In this document: one piece after another, positions 22,855 to 44,182 of the stretch
Numbering within the stretch: position 1 is the stretch's first letter
Layout of the letters: every line of letters begins with the position of its first letter
Assembly (NCBI RefSeq): GCF_017642925.1
Contig: NZ_JAEPOL010000017.1
Span: 1 to 64,000, forward strand
Source of the DNA: Maricaulis sp.
Lineage (GTDB): Bacteria > Pseudomonadota > Alphaproteobacteria > Caulobacterales > Maricaulaceae
Direction: 5' to 3'
DNA length: 64,000 nt
Notes under the pieces: model-generated
The model's input: the letters and a program-made list of their open reading frames with translations, nothing else
Told to the model about the DNA's origin: nothing
Database searches by the model: none
Translations under genes and position numbers: made by a program

Positions 22855-22882
22855 TTGTGTTAGTGCGCTAACACGTTATATC
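22855..22882 (+). promoter_or_regulatory. his operon promoter with 18-bp operator-like palindrome
   Basis: TTGTGT (22855-22860) and TATATC (22877-22882), 16 bases apart, form a plausible promoter. GTGTTAGTGCGCTAACAC (22857-22874) fills the spacer; its seven-base arms match perfectly. It has the 18-base length of the E. coli TrpR operator and agrees with GTACTAGTTAACTAGTAC at about 11 positions. The short leader (about 15 bases to the ATG) leaves no room for a leader-peptide attenuator. Confidence 0.6.
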
Positions 22883-22904: not shown

Positions 22905-23222
22905 ATGGACGACCTGTCTGAAAACACGCGCGCCCCGGCGCCGGACCTGGCGCCGCTCAGCGAGGCCTTGCTCGCCCTGCGCGATGAGCGCGAGGCCGAC
23001 CGGTTTTTGCGTGATCTGCTGACGCCGGGCGAGATCCGCACGCTGGTGGAGCGCTGGCGGGTGGCGCGGCTGCTGGACGAAGGCGGTCATTCCTATCGCG
23101 AGATTGCCGAGATGACCGGCGCCTCCACCACGACGGTGACCCGGGTCGCCCGTTTCCTCAGCCAGGAGCCCTGGCAGGGCTACCGCACCATTCTCGATCG
23201 CCTCAAGGAGCCGAAATCGTGA
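22905..23222 (+). CDS. TrpR-superfamily (YerC/HisR-like) regulator of the his operon
   Basis: The 105-residue protein belongs to the TrpR/YerC family: FLRDLLTPGEIRTLVERWRVARLLDEG (about 34-60) followed by the DNA-binding helices SYREIAEMTGASTTTVTRVARFL. Proteins of this family encoded next to histidine genes in Xanthomonadales and Firmicutes have been proposed as histidine-responsive repressors (HisR). Here it is the first gene of the operon, overlaps hisG by four bases (GTGA), and its own promoter contains an 18-bp palindrome. Auto- and operon repression by histidine is therefore a good hypothesis. AAGGAGA at 22890-22896 is its ribosome-binding site. Confidence 0.85.
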   Translation: MDDLSENTRAPAPDLAPLSEALLALRDEREADRFLRDLLTPGEIRTLVERWRVARLLDEGGHSYREIAEMTGASTTTVTRVARFLSQEPWQGYRTILDRLKEPKS

Positions 23223-24106
23223 CTTCCCCGCGTCTGCGTATCGCCGTTCAAAGCAAGGGCCGCCTCGCCGAGGGCGGTATGGACCTGTTGAAGCGCTGCG
23301 GCCTTCGTTTCGCCTATGGCCGGGACAAGCTGCACCAGCGCGCCGAGAACATGCCGGTCGACCTGATGCTGGTGCGTGACGACGACATCCCCAATTTCGT
23401 GGCGTCCGGGGCATGCGACTACGGCATCGTTGGCGAGAATGTGCTGCGCGAGGAACAGGCGGCTGGCGGCCGGGCCCGTGAGCTGGATGTGGCGCTGCGC
23501 CTGGGGTTCGCCGGCTGCACGCTGAAACTGGCTGCCGCCCAGGGCGGAGATATCCGCTCGTCTGCCGATCTGGCGGGCAAGGCGGTCGCGACCTCCTATC
23601 CGGCGCTCACGGCACAGTATCTGCGGGATCGGGGAATCGAGGCGGAAATCGTCGAGATGCGCGGTTCTGTGGAAGTGGCGCCCCGCCTGCGGATCGCCGA
23701 TGCGATCTGCGACCTTGTCTCGTCCGGCGCGACGCTGCAGGCCAACGGGCTGTCAGCCTTCGAGACGGTGCTGGAGAGCGAGGCCGTTCTGATCCGGCGC
23801 GGCACGGGCCGGGATCCCCGGACCGATGCCGTCGCGAATGTGCTGATGCGCCGTGCCGAGGGCGTGATCGCCAGCTCGCAGACCAAATACATCATGCTCA
23901 ACGCGCCCAAGGACAGGCTCGAAGCGATCCGCAACCTCCTGCCGGGCGCCGACGCGCCGACCATCGCCCAGGTCGCCGGCCGGGACGATGTCGTGGCCAT
24001 GCATGCGGTGTGCCGTGAACGGGTGTTCTGGGAAACCCTGGAAGCGCTCGAAGCGGAGGGCGCGCGCGCCATCCTGGTCTTGCCCATCGAGAAAATGCTC
24101 GCCTGA
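23219..24106 (+). CDS. hisG: ATP phosphoribosyltransferase (long form)
   Basis: HisG catalyses the first, committed step of histidine synthesis, joining ATP and PRPP. At 295 residues it is the long, HisZ-independent form with a C-terminal regulatory ACT-like domain, which gives histidine feedback. Signatures are LRIAVQSKGRLAEGG at the start, ENMPVDLMLVRDDDIPNFV (about 42-60) and ADAICDLVSSGATLQANGL (about 159-177). The ending AILVLPIEKML is close to enterobacterial HisG. Many alphaproteobacteria instead use short HisG plus HisZ. The start GTG overlaps the regulator's stop, and hisDB follows after 8 bases. Confidence 0.96.
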   Translation: MTSPRLRIAVQSKGRLAEGGMDLLKRCGLRFAYGRDKLHQRAENMPVDLMLVRDDDIPNFVASGACDYGIVGENVLREEQAAGGRARELDVALRLGFAGCTLKLAAAQGGDIRSSADLAGKAVATSYPALTAQYLRDRGIEAEIVEMRGSVEVAPRLRIADAICDLVSSGATLQANGLSAFETVLESEAVLIRRGTGRDPRTDAVANVLMRRAEGVIASSQTKYIMLNAPKDRLEAIRNLLPGADAPTIAQVAGRDDVVAMHAVCRERVFWETLEALEAEGARAILVLPIEKMLA

Positions 24107-24114
24107 GGTTCGTC

Positions 24115-26013
24115 ATGCTCGACACGCTGATCTGGAAAGAGGCCACAGAGGCACAACGGCGTCAGGCGCTGGCGCGTCCGGTCGAGACCGGTACCGCCGA
24201 TGCGGCGGCCCGCGAGATTGTGGATGCGGTGCGCGCGCGCGGCGACGAGGCGGTCCGCGCCTATGCAGCCCGTCTGGATGGCTACGCGCCGGACGATTTC
24301 CGTGTGCCGGCCGAAGCGCTGCGTGAGGCGCGCAAGGCCATGGACCCGGCTGACATTGAAGCGGTGAAGGCGGCCGCGGATGCGGTCCGGCGGTTTCACG
24401 TCCGCCAGGGCTATACCGGTTATTCCGTCGAGACCTGGCCGGGGGTCATGGCGTCACGCCGGGCGACGCCGGTCGATGTGGCGGCACTTTACGTGCCCGC
24501 CGGCAGTGCGCCGCTCGTCTCGACACTGATCATGCTGGCCGTGCCGGCCCAGCTGGCCGGTGTGCCGCGGATTGTCGTCGTGGCGCCGCCGGCCGGTGAG
24601 GGCGGGGTGAACCCGGCGCTCCTGGCCACCGCCGATATTCTCGGCATTGACGAGGTCTATGCGATCGGCGGCGCCCAGGCGATTGCGGCTCTGGCAACCG
24701 GTACGGCGGGCCTGCCGCGGGCCGACAAGATTTTCGGACCCGGCAATGCCTATGTCGCCGCAGCCAAATCCTATGTCGCCGGACTGCCGGGCGGGCCTGC
24801 AATCGATCTGCCGGCCGGACCGAGCGAGGTGATGGTGATTGCCGACGATCGCGCCGACGCCGAGTTGGTCGCCAGCGATTTGCTCAGCCAGGCCGAGCAC
24901 GATCCGTCGGCGCAGGTCGTGCTGGTCTGTTTCGATACTGTGACCCGCGACCGGGTGATTGCGGCGACCGAAGCCCAGCTGGCGCAATTGCCGCGTGCGG
25001 AAATCGCGCGGGCCGCGCTGGCAAACTCCTGCACGGTGATCTGCGACACGCTGGAAGAGGCGGCCGAGGTGGCCAATGCCTATGCCCCTGAACACCTGAT
25101 CCTGCAGGCCGATTCGGCCGAGCGCCTGGTCGGCCTGGTGCGGCATGCGGGGTCGATCTTTGTAGGCGCCTTCACGCCGGAAGCGGCGGGAGACTATGCC
25201 GCCGGTCCCAACCACACCCTGCCGACCAGCGGAGCTGCGCGGGCCTATGGCGGGGTGACGGTGGAGGCTTTCCAGAAGACCACGACCATCCTGCGCGCCA
25301 CGGCCGAGGGCGCGGCGGCGATGGCGCCCGCCGTCGAGCGGCTGGCGGCGCTGGAAGGACTGGAGGCTCACGCGACGGCCATACGTCTGCGCCGGGAACG
25401 GGCCGGGGCTCAGCCGGATGGGGCCGCGACCGGCGGTCCGCGCGCGGGCACGAAGCGCCGCAAGACGGCCGAGACGGATGTCACCGTGACCGTCAATCTC
25501 GATCGCGACGGCCCCAGCCGGATCGCCACCGGTGTGGGCTATTTCGACCACATGCTCGAACAGGTCGCCCGGCATGGCGGGATCGCGCTCGATGTGGCGG
25601 TGGAGGGCGATCTTCACATCGATGCCCACCACACGATCGAGGATGTCTGCCTGACCTTCGGTGAGGCCCTGCGCGAAGCGCTGCGGGACAAGCGCGGTCT
25701 TGCCCGCTTCGGGTTCGAACTGCCGATGGACGAGACGCGGGCCGCAGTCTGGATCGATCTGTCGGGACGGCCATTTGCGAAATTCGAGGGCGAGATACTC
25801 GGCGAGACCGTTGGTGAGTTCCCGGTCGAGATGACGGCGCACGCCTTCCGCTCCATCGCCGAAAGCCTGGGTGCGGCGATCCATGTGAAAGTCGAGGGCG
25901 AGAATGCCCACCACATGGTCGAGGCCTGTTTCAAGGCCTTCGGGCGCGCCCTGCGCAAGGCCGTGCGGGTCGAGGGCGATGCGCTGCCGTCGACCAAGGG
26001 GATGCTGGCATGA
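24115..26013 (+). CDS. hisDB: Fusion of histidinol dehydrogenase (HisD) and imidazoleglycerol-phosphate dehydratase (HisB)
   Basis: One 632-residue frame encodes two enzymes. Residues 1-430 are HisD, numbered exactly as in E. coli, with zinc ligands Gln259, His262, Asp360 and His419 and catalytic Glu326/His327. An Ala/Gly/Pro-rich linker (about 430-446) leads into HisB-type dehydratase (447-632), with TGVGYFDHMLEQ, DAHHTIEDVC, EMTAHAFRSIAE and ENAHHMVEACFKAFGRAL, the histidine- and glutamate-rich manganese sites. The histidinol-phosphatase domain of enterobacterial HisB is absent, and hisC, which lies between hisD and hisB in enterobacteria, is missing. The enzymes catalyse non-consecutive steps (6 and the final two). 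hisH overlaps the stop by four bases. Confidence 0.93.
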   Translation: MLDTLIWKEATEAQRRQALARPVETGTADAAAREIVDAVRARGDEAVRAYAARLDGYAPDDFRVPAEALREARKAMDPADIEAVKAAADAVRRFHVRQGYTGYSVETWPGVMASRRATPVDVAALYVPAGSAPLVSTLIMLAVPAQLAGVPRIVVVAPPAGEGGVNPALLATADILGIDEVYAIGGAQAIAALATGTAGLPRADKIFGPGNAYVAAAKSYVAGLPGGPAIDLPAGPSEVMVIADDRADAELVASDLLSQAEHDPSAQVVLVCFDTVTRDRVIAATEAQLAQLPRAEIARAALANSCTVICDTLEEAAEVANAYAPEHLILQADSAERLVGLVRHAGSIFVGAFTPEAAGDYAAGPNHTLPTSGAARAYGGVTVEAFQKTTTILRATAEGAAAMAPAVERLAALEGLEAHATAIRLRRERAGAQPDGAATGGPRAGTKRRKTAETDVTVTVNLDRDGPSRIATGVGYFDHMLEQVARHGGIALDVAVEGDLHIDAHHTIEDVCLTFGEALREALRDKRGLARFGFELPMDETRAAVWIDLSGRPFAKFEGEILGETVGEFPVEMTAHAFRSIAESLGAAIHVKVEGENAHHMVEACFKAFGRALRKAVRVEGDALPSTKGMLA

Positions 26014-26609
26014 CCATCGCCCTGATCGATACCGGCTGTGCCAATATCGCCTCGGTGCGGTTTGCATTGGACCGGGCGGGGCTGGACCATGTTGTGGTCA
26101 CCGAACCGGCTGGCGCGGCGGATTGCGACCGCATCATTCTGCCCGGTGTCGGTGCGGCGGGACCGGCCATGGAGCGCCTCAAGGCGCGCGGCTGGGCCGA
26201 GACATTGCCGCAGGACGGCCGTCCGCTGATGGGTATCTGTCTGGGCATGCAGCTCCTGTTCGAGCACTCGGCCGAGGGGGATGTCGACGGGCTCGGACTG
26301 CTGCCGGGCCGGGTCGAGCGCCTGCCGCGGCCGGACGGCCTGGTCTGGCCGCACATGGGCTGGAATGCGCTGGAAGGGTTCGCCGTCGGTGAGCCGTTGC
26401 TGACCGGCATTTCGGCCGGATCCCATGCCTATTTCGTCCACGGCTACTACGTTCCCGCCGGCCGGGTGACGCAGGCCCAGTGCGACTACGGCGTTCCGGT
26501 TTCGGCGATTGTGCGCCAGGGGCAGGTCTCCGGCTGCCAGTTTCATCCCGAGCGCTCCGGAGCCGTGGGCGCGCGTATTCTTTCCAACTTTGCGAGTATC
26601 AAGGCGTGA
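26010..26609 (+). CDS. hisH: Imidazole glycerol phosphate synthase, glutaminase subunit
   Basis: HisH supplies ammonia from glutamine to HisF. The 199-residue protein has the complete class-I triad, Cys77 (GICLGMQ), His179 and Glu181 (FHPERSGA). It opens with LIDTGCANIASV and carries PHMGWN, both very like enterobacterial HisH. It overlaps hisDB by ATGA and hisA by GTGA, so translation is probably coupled. Its partner hisF is two genes downstream in the same operon. Confidence 0.95.
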   Translation: MTIALIDTGCANIASVRFALDRAGLDHVVVTEPAGAADCDRIILPGVGAAGPAMERLKARGWAETLPQDGRPLMGICLGMQLLFEHSAEGDVDGLGLLPGRVERLPRPDGLVWPHMGWNALEGFAVGEPLLTGISAGSHAYFVHGYYVPAGRVTQAQCDYGVPVSAIVRQGQVSGCQFHPERSGAVGARILSNFASIKA

Positions 26610-27340
26610 TCCTCTATCCAGCCATCGACCTTCTCGACGGCCGCGTGGTGCGGCTGCACAAGGGTGAATTCGACGCCGTCACGGATTATGGCGACGATCC
26701 CGTTGCCGTGGCCGAAAAGTTCGGCGAGGCGGGTGCCAGCTGGATCCATGTCGTCGACCTGTCCGGCGCCCGGGACGGTCAGCGCCGGCAGGGCGATACG
26801 ATCCGCGATATCTGCCGCACGGGGCTGCGCGTGCAGACCGGCGGCGGGGTGCGTTCGTCCGAGGATGTGGAAGATCTCCTGGCGATGGATGTCGAGCGGG
26901 TGATCGTCGGTTCGCTGGCGGTGACGGATCCGGAAAAAGTCGCCGGATGGCTGGCCCGCTATGGCGGCGAACACATCACGCTGGCGCTGGATGTGCGGGC
27001 GGTCGGGGGCCAGTACCGCCCGGCGCTGAAGGGCTGGACGGATCTGGCGGACACCACGCTGGTCGATGTCGTGAAGGCGTATGACGGGGCGAAATTGCGC
27101 CACGCACTTGTCACGGACATCGGACGTGACGGTGACCTTTCTGGCCCGAATGTGGGACTTTACCGCTACATAAGTGCCCAATTCCGTGACATTGCCTGGC
27201 AGGCCTCCGGTGGTATCGCGTCCCTGGAGGATATCACGGCCGTGCGGGATGCGGGTGTTGCCGGGGCGATTTCCGGCAAGGCTTTGTATGAAGGCCGGTT
27301 TTCTCTTGCGGAGGCGTTGATATGCTCGCAAGACGGATAA
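26606..27340 (+). CDS. hisA: ProFAR isomerase
   Basis: HisA opens the ribose ring of ProFAR to give PRFAR, the substrate of HisF-HisH. The 244-residue TIM barrel has the catalytic aspartates in [15 protein letters not shown] (about 6-20) and [14 protein letters not shown] (about 171-184). The start is the GTG at 26606 overlapping hisH's stop; the frame continues open upstream, but that part is hisH sequence in another frame. The ring-closing segment [13 protein letters not shown] is conserved. It overlaps hisF by 19 bases. Confidence 0.94.
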
Positions 27341-28089
27341 TCCCCTGCCTCGATGTCCGCGATGGCCGTGTCGTCAAGGGCGTGAAATTCCGCGACCACG
27401 AGGATGTCGGCGCGATCGTCGATCTCGCCCGCCGCTATTCCGCCGCCGGTGCCGACGAACTGGTCTTCTACGACATCGCTGCCTCGGCCCGCGGGGCGAC
27501 GGTAGAGCCGGAATGGGTGAGCCGGGTGGCGCGGGAGATCGACATTCCCTTCTGCGTCGCCGGCGGTATCCGCAGTGTCGACGATGCCCGCGCGCGCCTG
27601 TTCGCCGGGGCCGACAAGATCTCGATCAATTCCCCGGCGCTGGAAAGCCCGGACCTGATCGACCGGCTGGCGCACGAATTCGGCAGCCAGTGCGTTGTGC
27701 TGGGTGTCGACAGCCGCAAGATCGAGGGCGAATGGCGGGTGCACCAGTATACCGGCGATCCGGACAAGACCCGCACCGATGAACGCCGCACGCTGGACTG
27801 GGTCGCCGAGGGGCTTGACCGCGGCGCGGGCGAGGTCGTGCTCAACTGCATGGACATGGATGGCGTTCGCGACGGGTATGATATCGAGCAGCTCGCTGCT
27901 GTGAGGGCGATCTGTTCGACCCCCCTGATCGCGTCGGGCGGGGCTGGCCGAAAAGAACACTTCAAATCCGTGTTCGAATTGGCCAATGTCGACGGCGCGC
28001 TGGCGGCCAGCGTATTTCATAAAGGGGTCATGCAGATAGGCGATCTGAAAGCCTATCTTGCCGCCGAGGGAATCAGGGTCAGACCATGA
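27322..28089 (+). CDS. hisF: Imidazole glycerol phosphate synthase, cyclase subunit
   Basis: HisF cyclises PRFAR with HisH-derived ammonia to imidazoleglycerol phosphate and AICAR. The 255-residue barrel has the catalytic aspartate in [15 protein letters not shown] (Asp11) and the second acid in [13 protein letters not shown] (about 173-185). The segment [13 protein letters not shown] is of the enterobacterial kind. It overlaps hisA by 19 bases and hisIE by four, consistent with tight translational coupling. Confidence 0.96.
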
Positions 28090-28718
28090 TTGAAGCGAAC
28101 ACCCTGGACTGGAAGAAGTCCGACGGGCTCATTCCGGCCATTGTCCAGGATCATGCCACGCGCCAGGTCCTCATGCTGGGCTATATGAATGAAGAGGCGC
28201 TCGCAAAGACGGTCGAGACCGGCAAGGTGCACTTCTTCTCGCGCTCCAAACAGCGCCTGTGGAAGAAGGGCGAAACCTCGGGCCACACATTCAAGCTGAT
28301 CTCCATTGCCGCCGATTGCGACCAGGACACGCTGCTGGTCGAGGTGAAGCCGAAAGGCCCGGCCTGCCACACCGGCACGGTGAGCTGTTTCGGCGACGAT
28401 CTGGCCCCGGGCCTGGGCTTCCTGGCGCATCTGCGCGCGATCATCCGCAAGCGCAAGAAGGACAATCCCAAGGGCTCCTATGTCGGCGGTCTGATGGCGC
28501 GCGCCCCGAAACGCCCGGCCCAGAAAGTCGGCGAAGAGGGTGTCGAGGTGGCCATGGCCGCGGTGTCGGAAAGCAAGGCCGCGCTGAAAGCCGAAGCGGC
28601 CGATCTGCTCTTCCACCTCATGGTGCTGCTGGAAAGCCGCGACCTCTCGCTCGAGGATGTCGTCGGCGTGCTGCGCAAGCGTCATGCCGTGCGCGCGGAA
28701 AAGACGGGACGGAGCTAA
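28086..28718 (+). CDS. hisI: Bifunctional PRA-CH hydrolase / PRA-PH pyrophosphatase
   Basis: This 210-residue fusion does steps two and three of the pathway. Residues 1-110 are the cyclohydrolase HisI ([25 protein letters not shown], with the metal site [11 protein letters not shown]...CHTG). Residues about 125-205 are the pyrophosphohydrolase HisE ([16 protein letters not shown] and [14 protein letters not shown]). The fused form is usual in gammaproteobacteria and Bacteroidetes; most alphaproteobacteria have separate hisI and hisE. It ends the operon, and a type A repeat follows 17 bases later. Confidence 0.95.
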
Positions 28719-32570: not shown

Positions 32571-33308
32571 CTATCCCTGCGGGCTGAAGCGTTCGGTCAT
32601 GGAGTGGCGCGAGCCGGGATGGGTGAGGCGGGCATAGGTGACAACGTCCTGGCCCTGGAAGGTGCGGCGCTCCAGCACGAGGCAGGCCGCGCCGGGCTCG
32701 ACGCCGAGACGGCGGGCCAGGTCTGCATCGGCATTGACGGCGGAGACCGTGTGTTCGGCTTCGGTCCAGGGCGCGGCGCGCAGCAGCCAGCCGCCGGGGC
32801 CTTCGGTGTCGAAACCGGCCTGGGCGGCGCCGGGCAGAAGGGCGAGATTGATCCAGCGTTCCTCGAACTCGACGATCTCGCCATCCGCCGTGTGCAGGCA
32901 TTCCACATGCTGCAGACGCGCGCCGGGCGGCAGGCGCATCGCCTTGGCGATCGCGGGCGAGGCGGGCACGGTGTCGTCGGTCTCGCAGACATAGCCATAG
33001 GTCTGGCCGCGGGCGGGAATGGCCTTGGCCATGTCGACGATTTTCAACAGGGCGGCAGGGGCGTCGGGCTGGGCCACGAAGGTCCCGGCGCGGCGGCGGC
33101 GGACCAGCAGGCCTTCCTCGGTCAGCTCACGCAGGGCGCGGTTGACCGTCATGCGGGCCGTGGTGAGGGATTGCGAGAGATCGGCTTCCGAGGGCAGGCG
33201 GTCGCCCGGCTTCCAGGCACCGGAGCGGATCTGCGCCGTGACGGCGCGCTTGATCTGGTCGTAGACCGGTCCGTGTCCGTCCAGTTCGATGGCCTCGATC
33301 TGCGGCAT
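32571..33308 (-). CDS. hutC: GntR-family histidine-utilization repressor HutC
   Basis: HutC represses hut genes and is released by urocanate. The 245-residue protein has an N-terminal GntR winged helix (VYDQIKRAVTAQIRSGAWKPGDRLPSEADLSQSL) and a C-terminal UTRA ligand-binding domain (about 95-240). The start at 33308 gives the normal family N-terminus; its ATG overlaps the hutF stop (TGATG). It is thus the second gene of a hutF-hutC operon, and the box at 34717-34730 between the divergent units is its likely target. Confidence 0.92.
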   Translation of the reverse strand: MPQIEAIELDGHGPVYDQIKRAVTAQIRSGAWKPGDRLPSEADLSQSLTTARMTVNRALRELTEEGLLVRRRRAGTFVAQPDAPAALLKIVDMAKAIPARGQTYGYVCETDDTVPASPAIAKAMRLPPGARLQHVECLHTADGEIVEFEERWINLALLPGAAQAGFDTEGPGGWLLRAAPWTEAEHTVSAVNADADLARRLGVEPGAACLVLERRTFQGQDVVTYARLTHPGSRHSMTERFSPQG

Positions 33309-34675
33309 CAGCCCCCTCCGTGCAGCAGGTCCGCAATGGCGGTGCGATAGGCGGCCAGTGCGCTGTCCCGCACCCGGGCGCGGCCTGCTGTCACCTGCGC
33401 CTGTCCGCCGACATGCACCGAGCGGACACATCCCTTGTCGCCGCAGAATATCCAGCTGTCCAGCAAGGCGTCCGCAGATCGTCCCGTCAGATGCGGATTA
33501 TCCGTGTCCAGTTCGACGAAATCGGCGCGCTGGCCGGGGGCAAGACCGGCGGCGGGCTGTTTCAGCGCCTGGGCACCGCCGGCGAGGGCGGCCTCGAACA
33601 GGGTACGGCCGCTCGAGCGGCCGGGCGCGGCGAGGGCATTGCGGCGGCGGGCGGTCAGACGGACGCCGTATTCCAGCAGGCGCAGCTCCTCGGCCAGATC
33701 GATGCGGATATGGCTGTCCGAACCGATACCGATCCGCCCGCCGGCCTCGAGATAGGCCCGTGCCGGAAAGAGACCGTCGCCCAGATTGGCCTCGGTCAGC
33801 GGGCACAGGCCGGCCACCGCGCCGGAGCGGGCGAGGGCGGTTGTTTCCTCAGCGTCCATATGGGTCGCGTGGACGAGGCACCAGTCGGCATTAACCGCGA
33901 CATGCTCCATCAGATGAGCGACCGGGCGCTGTCCCGTCGCGGCGATACAGTCTTCAACCTCTTGTGTCTGCTCGGCAATATGGATGTGGAGCGGGGCGTT
34001 TTCCACAAGTGGCAGAATGGCAGAAATATCCTTAACGGGGGCGGCGCGCAGGGAGTGCGGCGCCAGGCCCAGCCGGGCATGGGGCAGGGCTGCGACATGC
34101 TTCCGCGCGGCCTCGATGAGGGCGGCATAGCTGTCCGGATCATGCAGGAAACGGCGCTGGCCATGGCTGGCCGGAGCTTCGTTGAAACCGCTATAGCGGT
34201 AATAGACAGGCAGCAGGGTGAGGGCGATGCCGGTCGAAGCGGCGGCGGCGCAGATCCGCCCGGCCATCTCGGCACGGTCGTCATAGGGCGTGCCGTCCGG
34301 GCCGTGATGGAGATAGTGGAATTCGCCCACGGAGGTGAAGCCGCTCTCCAGCATCTCCACCTGCACCCAGGCGGCAATCGCCTCGACATGGTCCGGGGTG
34401 AGGCGGTCGTTGAAGGCGTACATCAATTGCCGCCAGGACCAGAAACTGTCCTCACCCTCGCCGCGGCGCTCGGTGAGGCCGGCCATGGCGCGCTGGAAGC
34501 TGTGCGAGTGCAGATTGGCGAGGCCCGGCACCACTGTGCCCAGCCGCGTCGCGTCCTTGGCGGGCGGTGTGCCGGGACGGATGTCGGCGATCAGGCCGGC
34601 CGCGTCGACCCGGATCGTAACGCCATCGGCCCAGCCATCGGGCAGAAGGGCGGACCGGCAATAAAATTCAGCCAT
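33308..34675 (-). CDS. hutF: Formimidoylglutamate deiminase
   Basis: HutF converts N-formimidoyl-glutamate to N-formyl-glutamate and ammonia. The 455-residue amidohydrolase has the metal motif NLHSHSFQRAMAGLTERRG (about 54-72), a later metal histidine in LHIHIAEQ and the aspartate region GIGSDSHIRIDL. Its presence together with HutG shows that this organism uses the two-step route and not direct formiminoglutamase. It is divergent from hutI and translationally linked to hutC. Confidence 0.95.
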   Translation of the reverse strand: MAEFYCRSALLPDGWADGVTIRVDAAGLIADIRPGTPPAKDATRLGTVVPGLANLHSHSFQRAMAGLTERRGEGEDSFWSWRQLMYAFNDRLTPDHVEAIAAWVQVEMLESGFTSVGEFHYLHHGPDGTPYDDRAEMAGRICAAAASTGIALTLLPVYYRYSGFNEAPASHGQRRFLHDPDSYAALIEAARKHVAALPHARLGLAPHSLRAAPVKDISAILPLVENAPLHIHIAEQTQEVEDCIAATGQRPVAHLMEHVAVNADWCLVHATHMDAEETTALARSGAVAGLCPLTEANLGDGLFPARAYLEAGGRIGIGSDSHIRIDLAEELRLLEYGVRLTARRRNALAAPGRSSGRTLFEAALAGGAQALKQPAAGLAPGQRADFVELDTDNPHLTGRSADALLDSWIFCGDKGCVRSVHVGGQAQVTAGRARVRDSALAAYRTAIADLLHGGG

Positions 34676-34730: not shown

Positions 34731-34753
34731 TAGACGCATGCAAAGGCCGTCCC

Positions 34754-35962
34754 ATGCAATTCGACCGTCTTCTCACGAATGCACGCCTGGCGACAATGGT
34801 GCCCGGCGGTGCCGCCTATGGCGCTATCGAGGGCGGCGCGATCGGGATTTCCGGCGAGCGGATCGCCTGGGCCGGACCCATGGCCGAAGTGCCGGGCGAG
34901 GCCGCCGTCACCGAGAATATGGACGGGCGCTGGATCACGCCGGCCCTGGTCGATTGTCACACCCATCTCGTCTTCGCCGGCGACCGCTCGGACGAGTATG
35001 AGCGCAAGCTGGCGGGCGAGGATTATGCCGCCATCGCCCGCGCCGGCGGCGGTATCCGCAAGACGGTCGAGGCGACGCGCAAGGCCGGTGCGGCCGAACT
35101 GGCCGCCGGAGCGCTGTCGCGGCTGGATGCCTACGCGCTGGAAGGCGTCGGCACGGTCGAGATCAAGTCGGGTTATGGCCTGACCCATGACAGCGAACTG
35201 GCGCAGCTGAAAGCGGCGCGCGGCGTCGGCCTGGCCTCGGGCATGCGCATTTCCGCGACCCTCCTGGCCGCGCACACCGTGCCGGTGGAGTATGAGGGCC
35301 GCTCGGGCGCCTATATCGACGAGGTCTGCATCCCGCTGGTGCGCGAGGCCGCGCGGACGGGCCTGGCCGATGCGGTCGACGCCTATTGCGAGGGTATTGC
35401 CTTCTCGCCGGAAGAGACGCGCCGTCTGTTCATTGCCGCCAAGGCGGCCGGCCTGCCGGTGAAACTGCATGCCGACCAGCTCTCCGATACCGGCGGCGGC
35501 CAGCTGGTTGCCGAGTTCGGCGGCCTGTCGGCGGACCATATCGAATACACGAACGAGGCGGGCATTGCCGCGATGGGCAAGGCGGGCACGGTGGGCGTGC
35601 TGCTGCCCGGCGCCTTCTATGCGCTGCGCGAGACGCAAAGACCGCCGGTCGAGGCGATGCGTGCGGCCGGTGTGCCGATGGCCGTGGCGACCGACGCCAA
35701 TCCGGGCACCTCGCCGCTCGTCTCGCTGCTGACGGCCGCCAACATGGCCTGCACGCTCTTCCACCTGACCGTGGAGGAGGCGATCGCCGGCATTACCCGC
35801 GAGGGCGCACGGGCGCTGGGTCTGGCCGGCGAGATCGGCACGATCGAGGCCGGCAAGGTGGCGGATCTGGCTGTCTGGGACATCGAGCGCCCGGCGGAAC
35901 TGGTTCAATGGATCGGAAAACGGCCCCTGCATGGCCGTATCCTGGGAGGAGAATGGCTGTGA
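34754..35962 (+). CDS. hutI: Imidazolonepropionase
   Basis: HutI hydrolyses 4-imidazolone-5-propionate to formiminoglutamate. The 402-residue amidohydrolase has the metal motif [12 protein letters not shown] (about 70-81), KLHADQLSD (about 237), and [11 protein letters not shown] (about 312-322). Start at the ATG 34754: the frame is open far upstream, but that stretch lies antisense to hutF. It is the first gene of hutI-H-G-U and overlaps hutH by 10 bases. Confidence 0.95.
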
Positions 35963-38296: not shown

Positions 38297-39967
38297 TTGA
38301 CCCAGACCCGCCGCGACAATTCCCGCATCATCCGCGCCAGGCACGGCAGCGAACTCGACGCCACCCACTGGGCGGCCGAGGCGCCGTTGCGCATGCTGAT
38401 GAACAATCTCGACCCCGAAGTGGCCGAGAAGCCGGAAGAACTGGTCGTCTATGGCGGGATCGGCCGGGCCGCGCGCGACTGGGAGAGTTTCGACCGGATC
38501 GTTGCGACCCTGAAACGGTTGAAGGAAGACGAGACCCTGCTGGTCCAGTCCGGCAAGCCGGTGGGTGTGTTCCGCACCCACAAGGACGCGCCGCGCGTGC
38601 TGATCGCCAACTCCAATCTCGTGCCCCACTGGGCAAACTGGGACCATTTCCGCGAGCTCGATAAGAAGGGCCTCATGATGTACGGCCAGATGACGGCCGG
38701 GTCGTGGATCTATATCGGCAGCCAGGGCATCGTTCAGGGCACGTACGAGACCTTCGTCGAAGCCGGCCGCCAGCACTATGACGGCGATCTGGCCGGCCGC
38801 TGGATCCTGACCGGCGGTCTGGGCGGCATGGGCGGCGCCCAGCCGCTGGCCGCGACCATGGCGGGCGCCTCCATGCTGGCCGTGGAATGCCAGCCGAGCC
38901 GGATCGAGATGCGTCTGAAGACCGGCTATCTCGACCGCAAGGCCGACACGCTGGACGAGGCCATGGCCATCATCAACGCGGCCGTCGCGAAGAAGGAAGC
39001 CGTCTCGGTCGGCCTGCTGGGCAATGCGGCCGAGGTCTTCCCGGAACTCGTCAAACGCGGCATCAAGCCGGACATGGTCACCGACCAGACCTCGGCCCAC
39101 GATCCGGTCAATGGTTATCTGCCCGCCGGCTGGACGCTGGCTGAATGGGACGAGAAGCGCGAGAGCGATCCCGCCGCCGTCGAAAAAGCCGCCAAGGCTT
39201 CGATGGCCGTGCAGGTAAGGGCGATGCTCGACTTCTGGGAGATGGGCATCCCGACGCTCGACTATGGCAATAATATCCGCCAGATGGCCCAGGATGAGGG
39301 CGTTGCGAACGCCTTCGACTTCCCCGGTTTCGTGCCAGCCTATATCCGCCCGCTCTTCTGCCGCGGCATCGGTCCCTTCCGCTGGGCGGCGCTGTCGGGC
39401 GATCCGGAGGATATCTATAAGACCGACGCCAAGGTGAAGGAACTCATCCCGGACAATCCGCACCTGCATCGCTGGCTCGACATGGCGCGTGAGCGCATCC
39501 AGTTCCAGGGCCTGCCGGCGCGGATCTGCTGGGTCGGGCTGGGCGAACGGCACAAGCTGGGCCTGGCCTTCAACGAGATGGTGGCAAAGGGCGAGCTTTC
39601 GGCGCCGGTCGTGATCGGCCGCGACCACCTCGATTCAGGCTCGGTCGCCAGCCCCAACCGGGAAACCGAGGGCATGATGGACGGCTCTGACGCCGTCGCC
39701 GACTGGCCGCTCCTGAACGCTTTGCTGAACACGGCCTCGGGCGCCACCTGGGTCTCGCTGCATCATGGCGGCGGGGTCGGCATGGGCTATTCCCTGCACT
39801 CCGGCCAGGTCGTCATGGCCGACGGCACGCCGGAAGCCGCCGAACGCGTCGGCCGCGTCCTGTGGAACGATCCGGGCACCGGCGTGATGCGCCATGCCGA
39901 TGCGGGGTACGAGATCGCGAAGGATTGCGCGCGGGAGCAGGGGCTGGATTTGCCGAGCGTGGTGTAG
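38297..39967 (+). CDS. hutU: Urocanate hydratase
   Basis: HutU hydrates urocanate to imidazolonepropionate with tightly bound NAD. The 556-residue product aligns by eye along its length with family members: [50 protein letters not shown] (NAD site) and the catalytic-cysteine segment near [10 protein letters not shown]. The start codon is TTG at 38297, one base after hutG's stop with GGAGAGG upstream; no ATG or GTG nearby gives a full N-terminus. It is the last gene of the hut operon. Confidence 0.95.
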
Positions 39968-41874: not shown

Positions 41875-43077
41875 ATGTCCGACGCCTTTTTCGCCGATCT
41901 TCGTGCCGAGCTGGAAAACATCGAGGCCGACGGGCTCTACAAGCGTGAGCGGATCATCACCTCGCAGCAGTTTTCCGAGATCGATGTGCGGGCGAATGGC
42001 GATGAGAGCCATGTCATCAATTTCTGCGCCAACAACTATCTCGGCCTGGCCAACCGGCCGGAGCTGATCGAGGCGGCGAAGACTACGCTGGACAGTCATG
42101 GTTTCGGCGTGGCCTCGGTGCGCTTCATCTGCGGCACCCAGGATCTGCACAAGCAGCTGGAAGCGAAGATCGCCGGGTTTACCGGCTGCGAGGACGCCAT
42201 CCTCTACGCGGCGGCTTTCGACGCGAATGGCGGCGTGTTCGAACCGCTGCTGGGGCCGGAGGATGCGATCATCTCCGACGCGCTGAACCATGCCTCCATC
42301 ATCGACGGTGTGCGCCTGTGCAAGGCGAAGCGCTATCGCTATGCCAATTCGGACATGGCCGATCTGGAGACCCAGCTGAAACAGGCCCGGGCCGATGGCG
42401 CGCGCCACATCCTGATCGTCACCGACGGCGTGTTTTCCATGGACGGCTATATCGCCAATTTGCCGGAGATCGTGCGGCTGGCGAAACAGTATGACGCGCT
42501 GACCATGGTGGATGATTGCCACGCGCACGGCTTCATGGGCGCGAAGGGACGCGGCACGCCGGAGCATTGCGGCGTTTTCGGCGAGATCGACATCATCACC
42601 GGCACGCTGGGCAAGGCGCTGGGCGGAGCGATGGGCGGCTTCACCGCGGCGCGCAAGGAAATCGTCGACATGCTGCGCCAGCGCTCGCGGCCCTATCTCT
42701 TCTCCAACTCGCTGGCACCGGCCATTGCGGGGGCCTCGCTGAAGGCGCTCGACATGGTGGCCGAGGGCGACGATCTGCGCGCGCGCCTGTTCGACAATGC
42801 CAAGCGCTTCCGTGCGGGTATGAGCGCGGCCGGTTTCGATCTCCTGCCGGGCGAGCATCCGATCATCCCGGTGATGCTGGGCGATGCGAAACTGGCCCAG
42901 GAGATGGCGGCGAAACTGATGGAGGAGGGCGTCTATGTGATCGGCTTCTTCTATCCCGTCGTGCCCAAGGGCAAGGCCCGCATCCGCACCCAGATGTCCG
43001 CCGCCCACACGCCGGAGATGATCGACCGCGCCGTCGCCGCCTTCACCAAGGTGGGCAAGGCGATGGGCGTGATCTAG
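41875..43077 (+). CDS. kbl: Glycine C-acetyltransferase (2-amino-3-ketobutyrate CoA ligase)
   Basis: Kbl cleaves 2-amino-3-ketobutyrate with CoA to glycine and acetyl-CoA, following Tdh in threonine breakdown. The 400-residue PLP enzyme of the alpha-oxoamine synthase family has [15 protein letters not shown] (about 44-58), [11 protein letters not shown] (about 211) and the PLP lysine in [13 protein letters not shown] (about 244). In many bacteria kbl and tdh are adjacent; here about 4.8 kb with five genes lies between them. Confidence 0.95.
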
Positions 43078-43108
43078 CATTCTGTTGTAGCGGTTTTTGG
43101 GGTGGAAC

Positions 43109-43669
43109 ATGGGCGAGAAAGATGTCCTCTTGGAGGAGTACAAGGTTACTGAAGCCCAGATACAGTCATACGACGCGTTTATCGTGCAGATAAAGAATTG
43201 GGCCGTTGTTTCTGTTACAGCAATTTTGGCTGTTGCTATGCAAGCAAAGGAGCCTGCAATTATTGTTCTTGCTTTTTTGGCGGTTATCGCGTTCTGGTAT
43301 TGCGCTGGCGTTTATAAAACTTTTCAGAATCATTATATTATGAGGTCTAGAGATATAGCCGTTAGAATTGACGGAAAAGATGAGTTCGAAGACTTTTCAG
43401 GATACAGTGATAGAGACCCGCTAAAATTTGGAGTCAGTCCGTATTTTAAAATTTATGAGAGCAAGAATTTTGTAGTTAAAATTATCATGGCTGTGCAGCA
43501 AATGTACAGGATAAGCTTGTCAGCTCTTTTTGGTTTTGTATTTTTTGTTTGTGTTGTTGCGTTTTTCTTTCTGGATTTATTAATTGTCGAAAGCTCTTCG
43601 AGTACGACGGAATTCACGATAACCGGTCCCGGAAATGTCCAGATCGAGCGTATTGACCCGCCCGAATAG
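43109..43669 (+). CDS. AT-rich membrane protein of unknown function, likely acquired
   Basis: The 186-residue product has an N-terminal helical segment ([21 protein letters not shown]), two adjacent membrane spans (about 30-70), a cytoplasmic middle, and two more spans (about 120-160). I recognise no named family, though small membrane proteins with this layout (EYK...helix, paired spans) are frequent in mobile DNA. Codon use is strikingly AT-rich (many TTT, ATT, AAA, AGG/AGA), unlike every neighbour, so recent transfer is likely. The ATG at 43109 is preferred over an in-frame TTG at 43097. A role in anti-phage or phage-exclusion processes is only speculation. Confidence 0.7.
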
Positions 43670-43795
43670 ATCTGACCCCGGATTCCCGGCTCGCCATTCC
43701 CTCCCGGATTCGGCGGGGCGCAATCCCTCTAATTCCCTATGGGTTTTCCGGCTAACGTCTTGGTGTTCAAGAGTTTAGCTGGAATGGAGGGACGT

Positions 43796-44182
43796 ATGAA
43801 ACTCAGTCTTCTTGCCGGCGGTGCCGCCATCCTTGCCGTGTCTGTCGGTGCCCTGATGTGGGGTCTGCCCCAGTATGGCGTCTGGCAGCAGGAACTGGCC
43901 GGCCGGGCCGAGCTGGTCCGCGCCGAGCAGAACCGCCGTATCGCCGTGCTGGAGGCCCAGGCGCGCCTGGAGGCCGAGGAGCTGAATGCCCAGGCCGAGA
44001 TTGCGCGCGCCCATGGTGTCGCCGAGGCCAATGCCATCGTGGCTGAAGGTCTGGGCGGTCCGGAAGGCTATCTGCGCTATCTGTGGATCCAGTCGCTGGG
44101 CGAGAACGGCCAGGATGTGATCTACATCCCGACCGAGGCCGGCTTGCCGATCCTGGAAGCCAGCCGTCACCTGGCCGAATAG
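43796..44182 (+). CDS. Membrane-anchored SPFH-tail-like protein
   Basis: The 128-residue protein has one N-terminal membrane span (about 3-22) followed by a coiled coil rich in Ala, Glu and Arg (about 30-85). The end, AEANAIVAEGLGGPEGYLRYLWIQSL...VIYIPTEAGLPIL, matches the C-terminal segment of stomatin/HflK-type SPFH proteins. The SPFH (band 7) domain itself is missing. It may oligomerise with or modulate full-length SPFH proteins. Start at 43796 with GGAGG 5-9 bases upstream; an upstream in-frame extension lacks a ribosome-binding site. Confidence 0.75.
   Translation: MKLSLLAGGAAILAVSVGALMWGLPQYGVWQQELAGRAELVRAEQNRRIAVLEAQARLEAEELNAQAEIARAHGVAEANAIVAEGLGGPEGYLRYLWIQSLGENGQDVIYIPTEAGLPILEASRHLAE

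Follow-up and report, generated by a model that had tools for sequence, protein, structure and literature searches.

The window, a 64,000-nucleotide stretch of Maricaulis sp. DNA, encodes a complete histidinol dehydrogenase (HisD) and a complete imidazoleglycerol-phosphate dehydratase (IGPD, HisB) in one frame (positions 24115 to 26013 of the window, plus strand). The best reading of the data is that a HisC domain standing before IGPD became redundant, then dead, then shrunken, and was deleted together with the hisD stop codon. This route as a whole, in which domain decay in the his operon would have led to one bifunctional 66-kDa protein and the fusion is a tolerated outcome, appears quite likely to us.

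The fused gene is a single frame of 632 codons with zero internal stops. Pfam assigned fusion residues 27 to 426 to Histidinol_dh (PF00815; 481 bits versus a cut-off of 27) and residues 472 to 613 to IGPD (PF00475; 187 bits versus a cut-off of 27). The NCBIfam models for hisD (TIGR00069; 484.4 bits, cut-off 243.8) and HisB (NF002111; 234.2 bits, cut-off 231) were both passed, and the uninterrupted HisD-HisB frame announced in the preliminary description was thus borne out. The HisD part aligns to PDB 1k75 over residues 5 to 427; therefore, the earlier remark that E. coli HisD numbering is kept through His419 also holds. The IGPD part aligns to PDB 4mu0 from residue 442. In 17 aligned fusions, the HisD residues Q259, H262, E326, H327, D360, H367, and H419, to which we ascribe catalytic and zinc roles, were invariant. 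The same was true of the IGPD motifs H479, H505-H506-x-x-E509, H576, and H599-H600-x-x-E603, in which the two HHxxE are presumably metal motifs. No other HisD or IGPD match was found in the genome, which is rated 99.99% complete. Because the sites are intact and no second HisD or IGPD was found, we infer that both active sites work in the predicted 66-kDa protein.

HisD proteins of sister genera terminate at '...RRERAS*' or a few residues beyond, which places the end of HisD near fusion residue 431 (HisD domain, residues 1 to 431, positions 24115 to 25407); Maricaulis HisD extends approximately 11 residues past this point into IGPD. IGPD's own N-terminus starts at about R443 (IGPD domain, residues 443 to 632, 25441 to 26010, followed by the stop codon at 26011 to 26013); we take the RxAxxxR...ET stretch, also seen in relatives, to be this N-terminus. 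The linker is therefore about 11 residues long (432 to 442, 25408 to 25440), of which residues 435 to 440 had a pLDDT below 50 in the AF2 model. A linker of about 17 residues had been proposed; the linker stands, and its length is about 11 by the sister HisD ends, while 17 depends on where the edges are placed. Linker length is not constant in Maricaulis: depending on the species, 51 to 63 bases separate the BLAST-matched parts. The approximately 11 residues left are too few for assigning a HisC trace.

A frameshift or assembly error at the linker, a concern raised in the preliminary description, can be excluded, because both domains are in one open frame in all 19 Maricaulis genomes (own genome and all 18 others of the genus, among 61 genomes searched), one of them (G013) being a contig-end fragment whose match ends inside HisD. 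Linker gaps in multiples of three were dismissed as evidence, since both domains share one frame anyway. Two proteins could still be made if IGPD had an internal start or if the chain were cut in the linker. GTG codons are located a few residues into IGPD, an ATG lies in the last HisD helix in 17 of 18 Maricaulis loci, and a Shine-Dalgarno-like stretch precedes a GTG in L113, the sole case in the 18 distinct Maricaulis loci scanned; furthermore, part of the linker was predicted at low confidence. However, in the window species, the segment extending from about 15 codons upstream of the HisD end to about 27 codons inside IGPD lacks an in-frame ATG, neither of its two in-frame GTGs is preceded by a Shine-Dalgarno-like stretch, and the frame is open genus-wide. 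A separate hisB start with a ribosome-binding site, the other earlier concern, is thus unsupported in this species, and we regard the production of two proteins as very unlikely.

The operon lies on the plus strand in the order TrpR-family regulator (22905 to 23222), hisG as first enzyme gene (23219 to 24106), hisD::hisB, hisH (26010 to 26609, its start overlapping the fusion stop as ATGA), hisA (26606 to 27340), hisF (27322 to 28089), and hisIE, a fused cyclohydrolase/pyrophosphatase gene (28086 to 28718). The products of hisG, hisH, hisA, hisF, and hisIE scored over the cut-offs of TIGR00070, TIGR01855, TIGR00007, TIGR00735, and NF002747, respectively, and Pfam detected PRA-CH and PRA-PH in the last of these. 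The regulator (Pfam Trp_repressor, 76 bits; no NCBIfam match at 1e-30) is probably HisR, since its position fits that of HisR in the available text of PMC9413887. Thirty bases before its start, a palindrome spotted by eye, GTGTTAG-N4-CTAACAC (22857 to 22874), is the sole copy in the window at up to one mismatch. When up to two mismatches were allowed, all 15 further Maricaulis loci tested had it at the corresponding position, as did 7 of 8 relic loci (described below) and 1 of 6 other loci; L030 lacked it. It is a possible HisR operator. It differs from the proteobacterial HisR motif given in the part of PMC9413887 seen, and that motif had zero matches in the window at up to three mismatches. 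Genes for histidine degradation are located near the biosynthesis operon, between 32571 and 39967: hutC (32571 to 33431) and hutF (33308 to 34675) on the minus strand, and hutI (34742 to 35962) and hutU (38297 to 39967) on the plus strand.

The preliminary description held that hisC is missing from the operon and that HisC and histidinol phosphatase must be supplied elsewhere. Indeed, HisC (TIGR01141; 317.6 versus a cut-off of 276.55) and a HisN-type phosphatase (TIGR02067; 291 versus 275.15) were matched on other contigs of the genome. A window gene at 41875 to 43077 (Pfam Aminotran_1_2) was considered as the missing hisC and rejected: it was absent from the TIGR01141 matches, hisC of this genome was located on a different contig, and the product of the window gene reads as a member of the KBL/BioF group. 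The 2-kb step 42001 to 44000 has a GC content of 0.575, compared with 0.62 to 0.69 in the remaining steps, and holds a 190-aa frame (43097 to 43669) beside this KBL/BioF-like gene.

A stand-alone hisC over the curated cut-off was detected in 17 of the 19 Maricaulis genomes, the two exceptions being incomplete (90% and 69%), and HisN exceeded its cut-off in 18 of 19 (exception G013, 65% complete). All 32 relic genomes of the family had a stand-alone hisC over the cut-off; in relic genome G245, a full-length HisC match fell just below it (272.1 versus 276.55). Stand-alone hisC was also present in four Brevundimonas-type genomes, in those of L052, L032, and L034, and in three SAR86 genomes. When an over-cut-off HisC in a frame of at least 531 aa was taken as HisC::IGPD, 64 genomes had one, and another stand-alone HisC was present in 14 of them (15 with the second match of G147). 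A backup HisC would have been necessary for the loss of the operon copy, and it may have been the cause of that loss.

We examined the stretch between the domains in loci holding both HisD and IGPD. The Maricaulis clade shows four states: HisC::IGPD, pseudo-HisC::IGPD, relic::IGPD, and HisD::IGPD. In HisC::IGPD, about 1,100 bases lie between the HisD and IGPD domains, and Pfam found an aminotransferase and IGPD in the four proteins tested; the PLP motif SK with its lysine was present in all 19 distinct proteins, most of which belong to the Maricaulis clade, with a few (such as L084, L054, and L065) outside it or at its edge. Pseudo-HisC::IGPD is shortened, with a still recognizable aminotransferase (83 and 150 bits in the two scored), and all five cases (four Brevundimonas-type, one SZAS-4) have lost the PLP lysine by a change of SK to SL (RSLSLAYGLAG). 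In the Brevundimonas locus and the three grouping with it (L096, L177, L178, L179), leucine stands at the position of the PLP lysine, a pseudoenzyme being fused to the essential IGPD. In relic::IGPD, an N-terminal part of 192 to 230 residues precedes IGPD (33 distinct loci).

L084, from Muribaculaceae (Bacteroidota), carries HisC::IGPD and lies far from the alphaproteobacterial clade in the trees, pointing to transfer or a second origin of this fusion. L141 and L167 come from genomes that share a genus code (G021 and G061). In one of these genomes, IGPD is preceded by only a HisC relic, and the other combines an intact HisC::IGPD with a separate, stand-alone hisC; the two loci were not sisters in the 53-row tree described below.

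These states bear on the proposal of the preliminary description that the enterobacterial operon, hisG-D-C-(HolPase-IGPD)-H-A-F-I, lost precisely two parts, hisC and the N-terminal HolPase half of hisB. The remaining gene order is identical. Some loci, gammaproteobacterial ones among them, separate HisD from IGPD by about 1,600 bases, which is the room that hisC plus HolPase would take up. However, the nearest relatives have HisC::IGPD or a relic, not HolPase-IGPD. Furthermore, the fusion scored 272.5 bits against the HolPase/IGPD model NF003937, below its cut-off of 443, and was matched from model position 166 only, that is, in the IGPD half. Pfam found no HAD/DDDD phosphatase domain in the fusion and no HolPase in the four HisC::IGPD proteins tested (L047, L053, and L073 of the Maricaulis clade, L084 outside it). 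Thus, among Maricaulis-clade relatives, neither the three HisC::IGPD proteins by Pfam nor the relics by profile gave a sign of a HolPase segment available for deletion. The absence of hisC from the operon stands, the HolPase ancestor does not, and the enterobacterial deletion is extremely improbable. The lost part was probably a HisC domain that had already decayed.

The identity of the relic was addressed by profile comparison. By its length, the region of about 200 residues before IGPD in Oceanicaulis had suggested HolPase, a candidate that we rejected: hhalign gave the relic alignment (L141 left out) a probability of 93.8% against the HisC profile in global mode (score 44.4; 83.4% in local mode) and of 0.2% against HolPase. 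The reversed relic reached 0.1% (global) and 0.5% (local), and 40 column shuffles reached at most 0.3% and 0.9%. The AF2 model of the Oceanicaulis relic (mean pLDDT 88.4) had as its top PDB match 3ly1, a putative histidinol-phosphate aminotransferase (Foldseek probability 1.00, E 1.4e-3, large internal gaps). No Foldseek match reached an E value of 1e-3 or below, and the 50 matches listed were mostly what we take to be fold-type I PLP enzymes, T. maritima HisC included. Taken singly, the relics scored low against the HisC HMM, with 6 of the 33 at E 0.01 or better; none of the 33 has a PLP lysine in an SK[A/I/V] motif, and Pfam found no match before IGPD in the three relic proteins tested. By profile, predicted fold, and position, the relic is classed as a relative of HisC, and not as a functional HisC. 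Relic dN/dS was 0.17 to 0.37 in pairs whose relic dS was below 0.7 (15 pairs), compared with 0.02 to 0.07 for IGPD and 0.05 to 0.19 for HisD; among all 73 pairs, it was up to 0.85, at higher dS. Since these values show that the relic is not drifting freely, it may have a structural role or a function beyond that of a leader.

In HisC::IGPD and relic loci, translation starts in the HisC part if the first ATG near the hisD stop is taken as the start. An ATGA overlap of this ATG with the hisD stop occurs in 22 of the 33 relic loci and in 14 of the 19 HisC::IGPD loci. The ATG is in the frame of hisD in none of these 52 loci; therefore, loss of the hisD stop alone would not fuse the genes. A different order of events is conceivable, in which hisB first regained its own start behind hisD and a later stop loss or frameshift fused the two. 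Arrangements of this kind exist: in G540 (L146/L170), hisD and hisB overlap unfused, in L049 they are adjacent and unfused, and in G560 (L180), HisD and IGPD share a frame that is interrupted by one stop codon followed directly by a valine codon, one mutation away from fusion; none of these loci has HisC in between. Because IGPD has its own start behind hisD in these genomes, the argument that IGPD is "captive" behind its partner is not absolute. However, this state was not seen in the clade of Maricaulis and the relics, and all 33 distinct relic loci retain the N-terminal part. We consider a regained start unlikely and favor deletion of the HisC remnant. None of the loci examined showed a half-deleted state between relic and fusion.

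In the family search, 127 of 137 genomes had a match, 6 of the 127 lying beyond the matches listed. A single unbroken match into both domains was obtained for 20 of the 127, namely the 19 Maricaulis genomes and G083, a Hyphobacterium MAG. In the class sample, 292 of 385 genomes had a match, and in the phylum sample, 374 of 398; among the matches listed for either, an unbroken match spanning the two domains occurred only in the genome of the window. When GTDB contigs were scanned with a pattern, 21 of the best 80 of 493 relatives had the fused gene: 14 from Maricaulis (one titled Alphaproteobacteria), 1 from Hyphobacterium, 2 from SZAS-9/Lac Pavin, and 4 SAR86-like. These counts are not frequencies, because the scan was seeded with the window protein and is biased to its kin. 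One of the four SAR86-like genes lies on a contig labelled Flavobacteriales (L040); it groups with SAR86, and the contig is perhaps mis-binned. The SAR86 fusions (L037, L041, L043) are 37 to 38% identical to the window fusion, and the one SAR86 locus checked (L041) has the layout hisG-[D::B]-H-A-F-IE, as in Maricaulis.

HisD and IGPD were combined in a FastTree tree of 118 distinct loci, with duplicates and fragments dropped, and in a quick IQ-TREE tree of 53 hand-chosen rows. In both trees, all relic loci apart from L141 group with Maricaulis and L030 in a single clade (SH-aLRT 100 in the 53-row tree), whose internal branches are less certain, and HisC::IGPD loci branch outside this clade. 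The Maricaulis fusions nest in the HisC::IGPD clade, with SH-aLRT values of 98 and 100 for the enclosing branches; L032/L034 stand beside the pseudo-HisC locus L052 (96), and SAR86 stands apart, its tree neighbors giving no indication of the state that preceded its fusion. An RRAEVV-like junction in L032/L034, considered as a HisC fossil, is the normal IGPD N-terminus.

A single origin of all fusions is opposed by AU tests, whose p-values are optimistic because the groups were chosen after the tree had been seen. All fusions as one clade were rejected (p 1.8e-54), as were Maricaulis with Hyphobacterium and L032/L034 (p 1.3e-45), Maricaulis with L032/L034 (p 5e-8), Maricaulis with Hyphobacterium and SAR86 (p 2e-12), and L032/L034 with SAR86 (p 2.2e-5). 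The tests did not reject a clade of Maricaulis and the DHS20C06 fusion of Hyphobacterium (p 0.143), which is why we count at least three origins and not four. HisD::IGPD thus arose at least three times: in Maricaulis, in the SZAS-9/Lac Pavin lineage (L032/L034), and in SAR86.

The route that we propose begins with the fusion of hisC and hisB, a state that relatives show, by which IGPD became the C-terminal half of HisC::IGPD and lost its own start codon. A second, stand-alone hisC would then have made the operon copy redundant; the two co-occur, and that one caused the other is our inference. As seen in relatives, the PLP lysine of the fused HisC disappeared in some lineages, while in others the domain was reduced to a relic of 192 to 230 residues. 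Since translation began in the dead domain, IGPD presumably had no simple way of getting rid of it. In Maricaulis, a deletion would have removed the relic and the hisD stop and joined IGPD in frame to HisD, as the nesting of the fusions suggests. More generally, this may be an instance of a "captive domain" ratchet, in which a C-terminal enzyme loses its start, its redundant N-terminal half decays to a selected dead leader, and upstream fusion is the escape. We put this generalization forward tentatively. If it is true, HisC::IGPD to pseudo- or relic::IGPD to HisD::IGPD would be a clear worked case, and the relic would be a pseudoenzyme domain that aids IGPD folding, assembly, or translation.

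IGPD is a 24-mer and HisD a dimer, which makes a large mixed particle likely: the fusion protein would probably assemble as an IGPD 24-mer with 12 HisD dimers, about 1.6 MDa in size. The fusion might be adaptive, with HisD tethered to the IGPD shell either co-localizing late and middle steps or fixing the ratio of the enzymes. The separate origins of the same pairing, the shared operon layout in SAR86, and the genus-wide retention are in line with this. However, if hisD merely happens to be the gene that precedes a captive IGPD, the same pairing should also arise repeatedly. Moreover, IGP dehydratase catalyzes step 6, HisC step 7, and histidinol dehydrogenase steps 9 and 10, according to the parts of PMC8305728 and PMC10978614 available. 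As the preliminary description had rightly pointed out, the steps of the two fused enzymes are non-adjacent, which makes direct channelling unlikely. We find an adaptive fusion doubtful; most likely, the fusion is a tolerated outcome of escape and not a channelling device.

Enterobacterial HisNB (HolPase-IGPD) resembles the Maricaulis fusion in that IGPD is C-terminal in a bifunctional protein encoded in a hisGD...BHAF(IE) operon, but it has the DDDD phosphatase at its N-terminus where Maricaulis has HisD, in line with the NF003937 score below cut-off. In fungal HIS4 (HisIE-HisD; PMC1963479, seen in part), HisD is joined to HisI/HisE, whereas in Maricaulis it is joined to IGPD. In the multi-domain protein of Acanthamoeba, as given in the available text of PMC6029752, HisD is joined to several histidine enzymes, but not to IGPD. 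HisC::IGPD, found in Robiginitomaculum, Sphingosinicella, and others, has IGPD at its C-terminal end and lies directly behind hisD, as in the inferred ancestor, but its N-terminal partner is an aminotransferase with PLP lysine instead of HisD. SAR86 HisD::IGPD has the same two domains in the same order, but a separate place in the tree and a separate origin. The accessible portions of PMC1963479 and PMC10138114 name hisD, N, B, H, F, I, and E, and not hisC, as fused his genes, and that of PMC8305728 names hisIE and hisNB as fusions. Neither HisD::IGPD nor HisC::IGPD was found in the openly accessible papers searched. HisD::IGPD is a new pairing within the well-known his-gene fusions, with a rare and unusually complete series of living intermediates and a repeated origin.

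The histidine pathway is a textbook case for the origin of gene fusions, and such fusions are often interpreted as evidence of interaction or channelling. Living relatives of Maricaulis preserve another route, fusion by deletion of a dead domain, apparently taken more than once. If this is right, the evidence that fused genes provide for functional interaction would be weaker than commonly supposed, and the dead HisC on an essential IGPD in Brevundimonas-type bacteria, Oceanicaulis, and others would be a testable model for the retention of dead domains.
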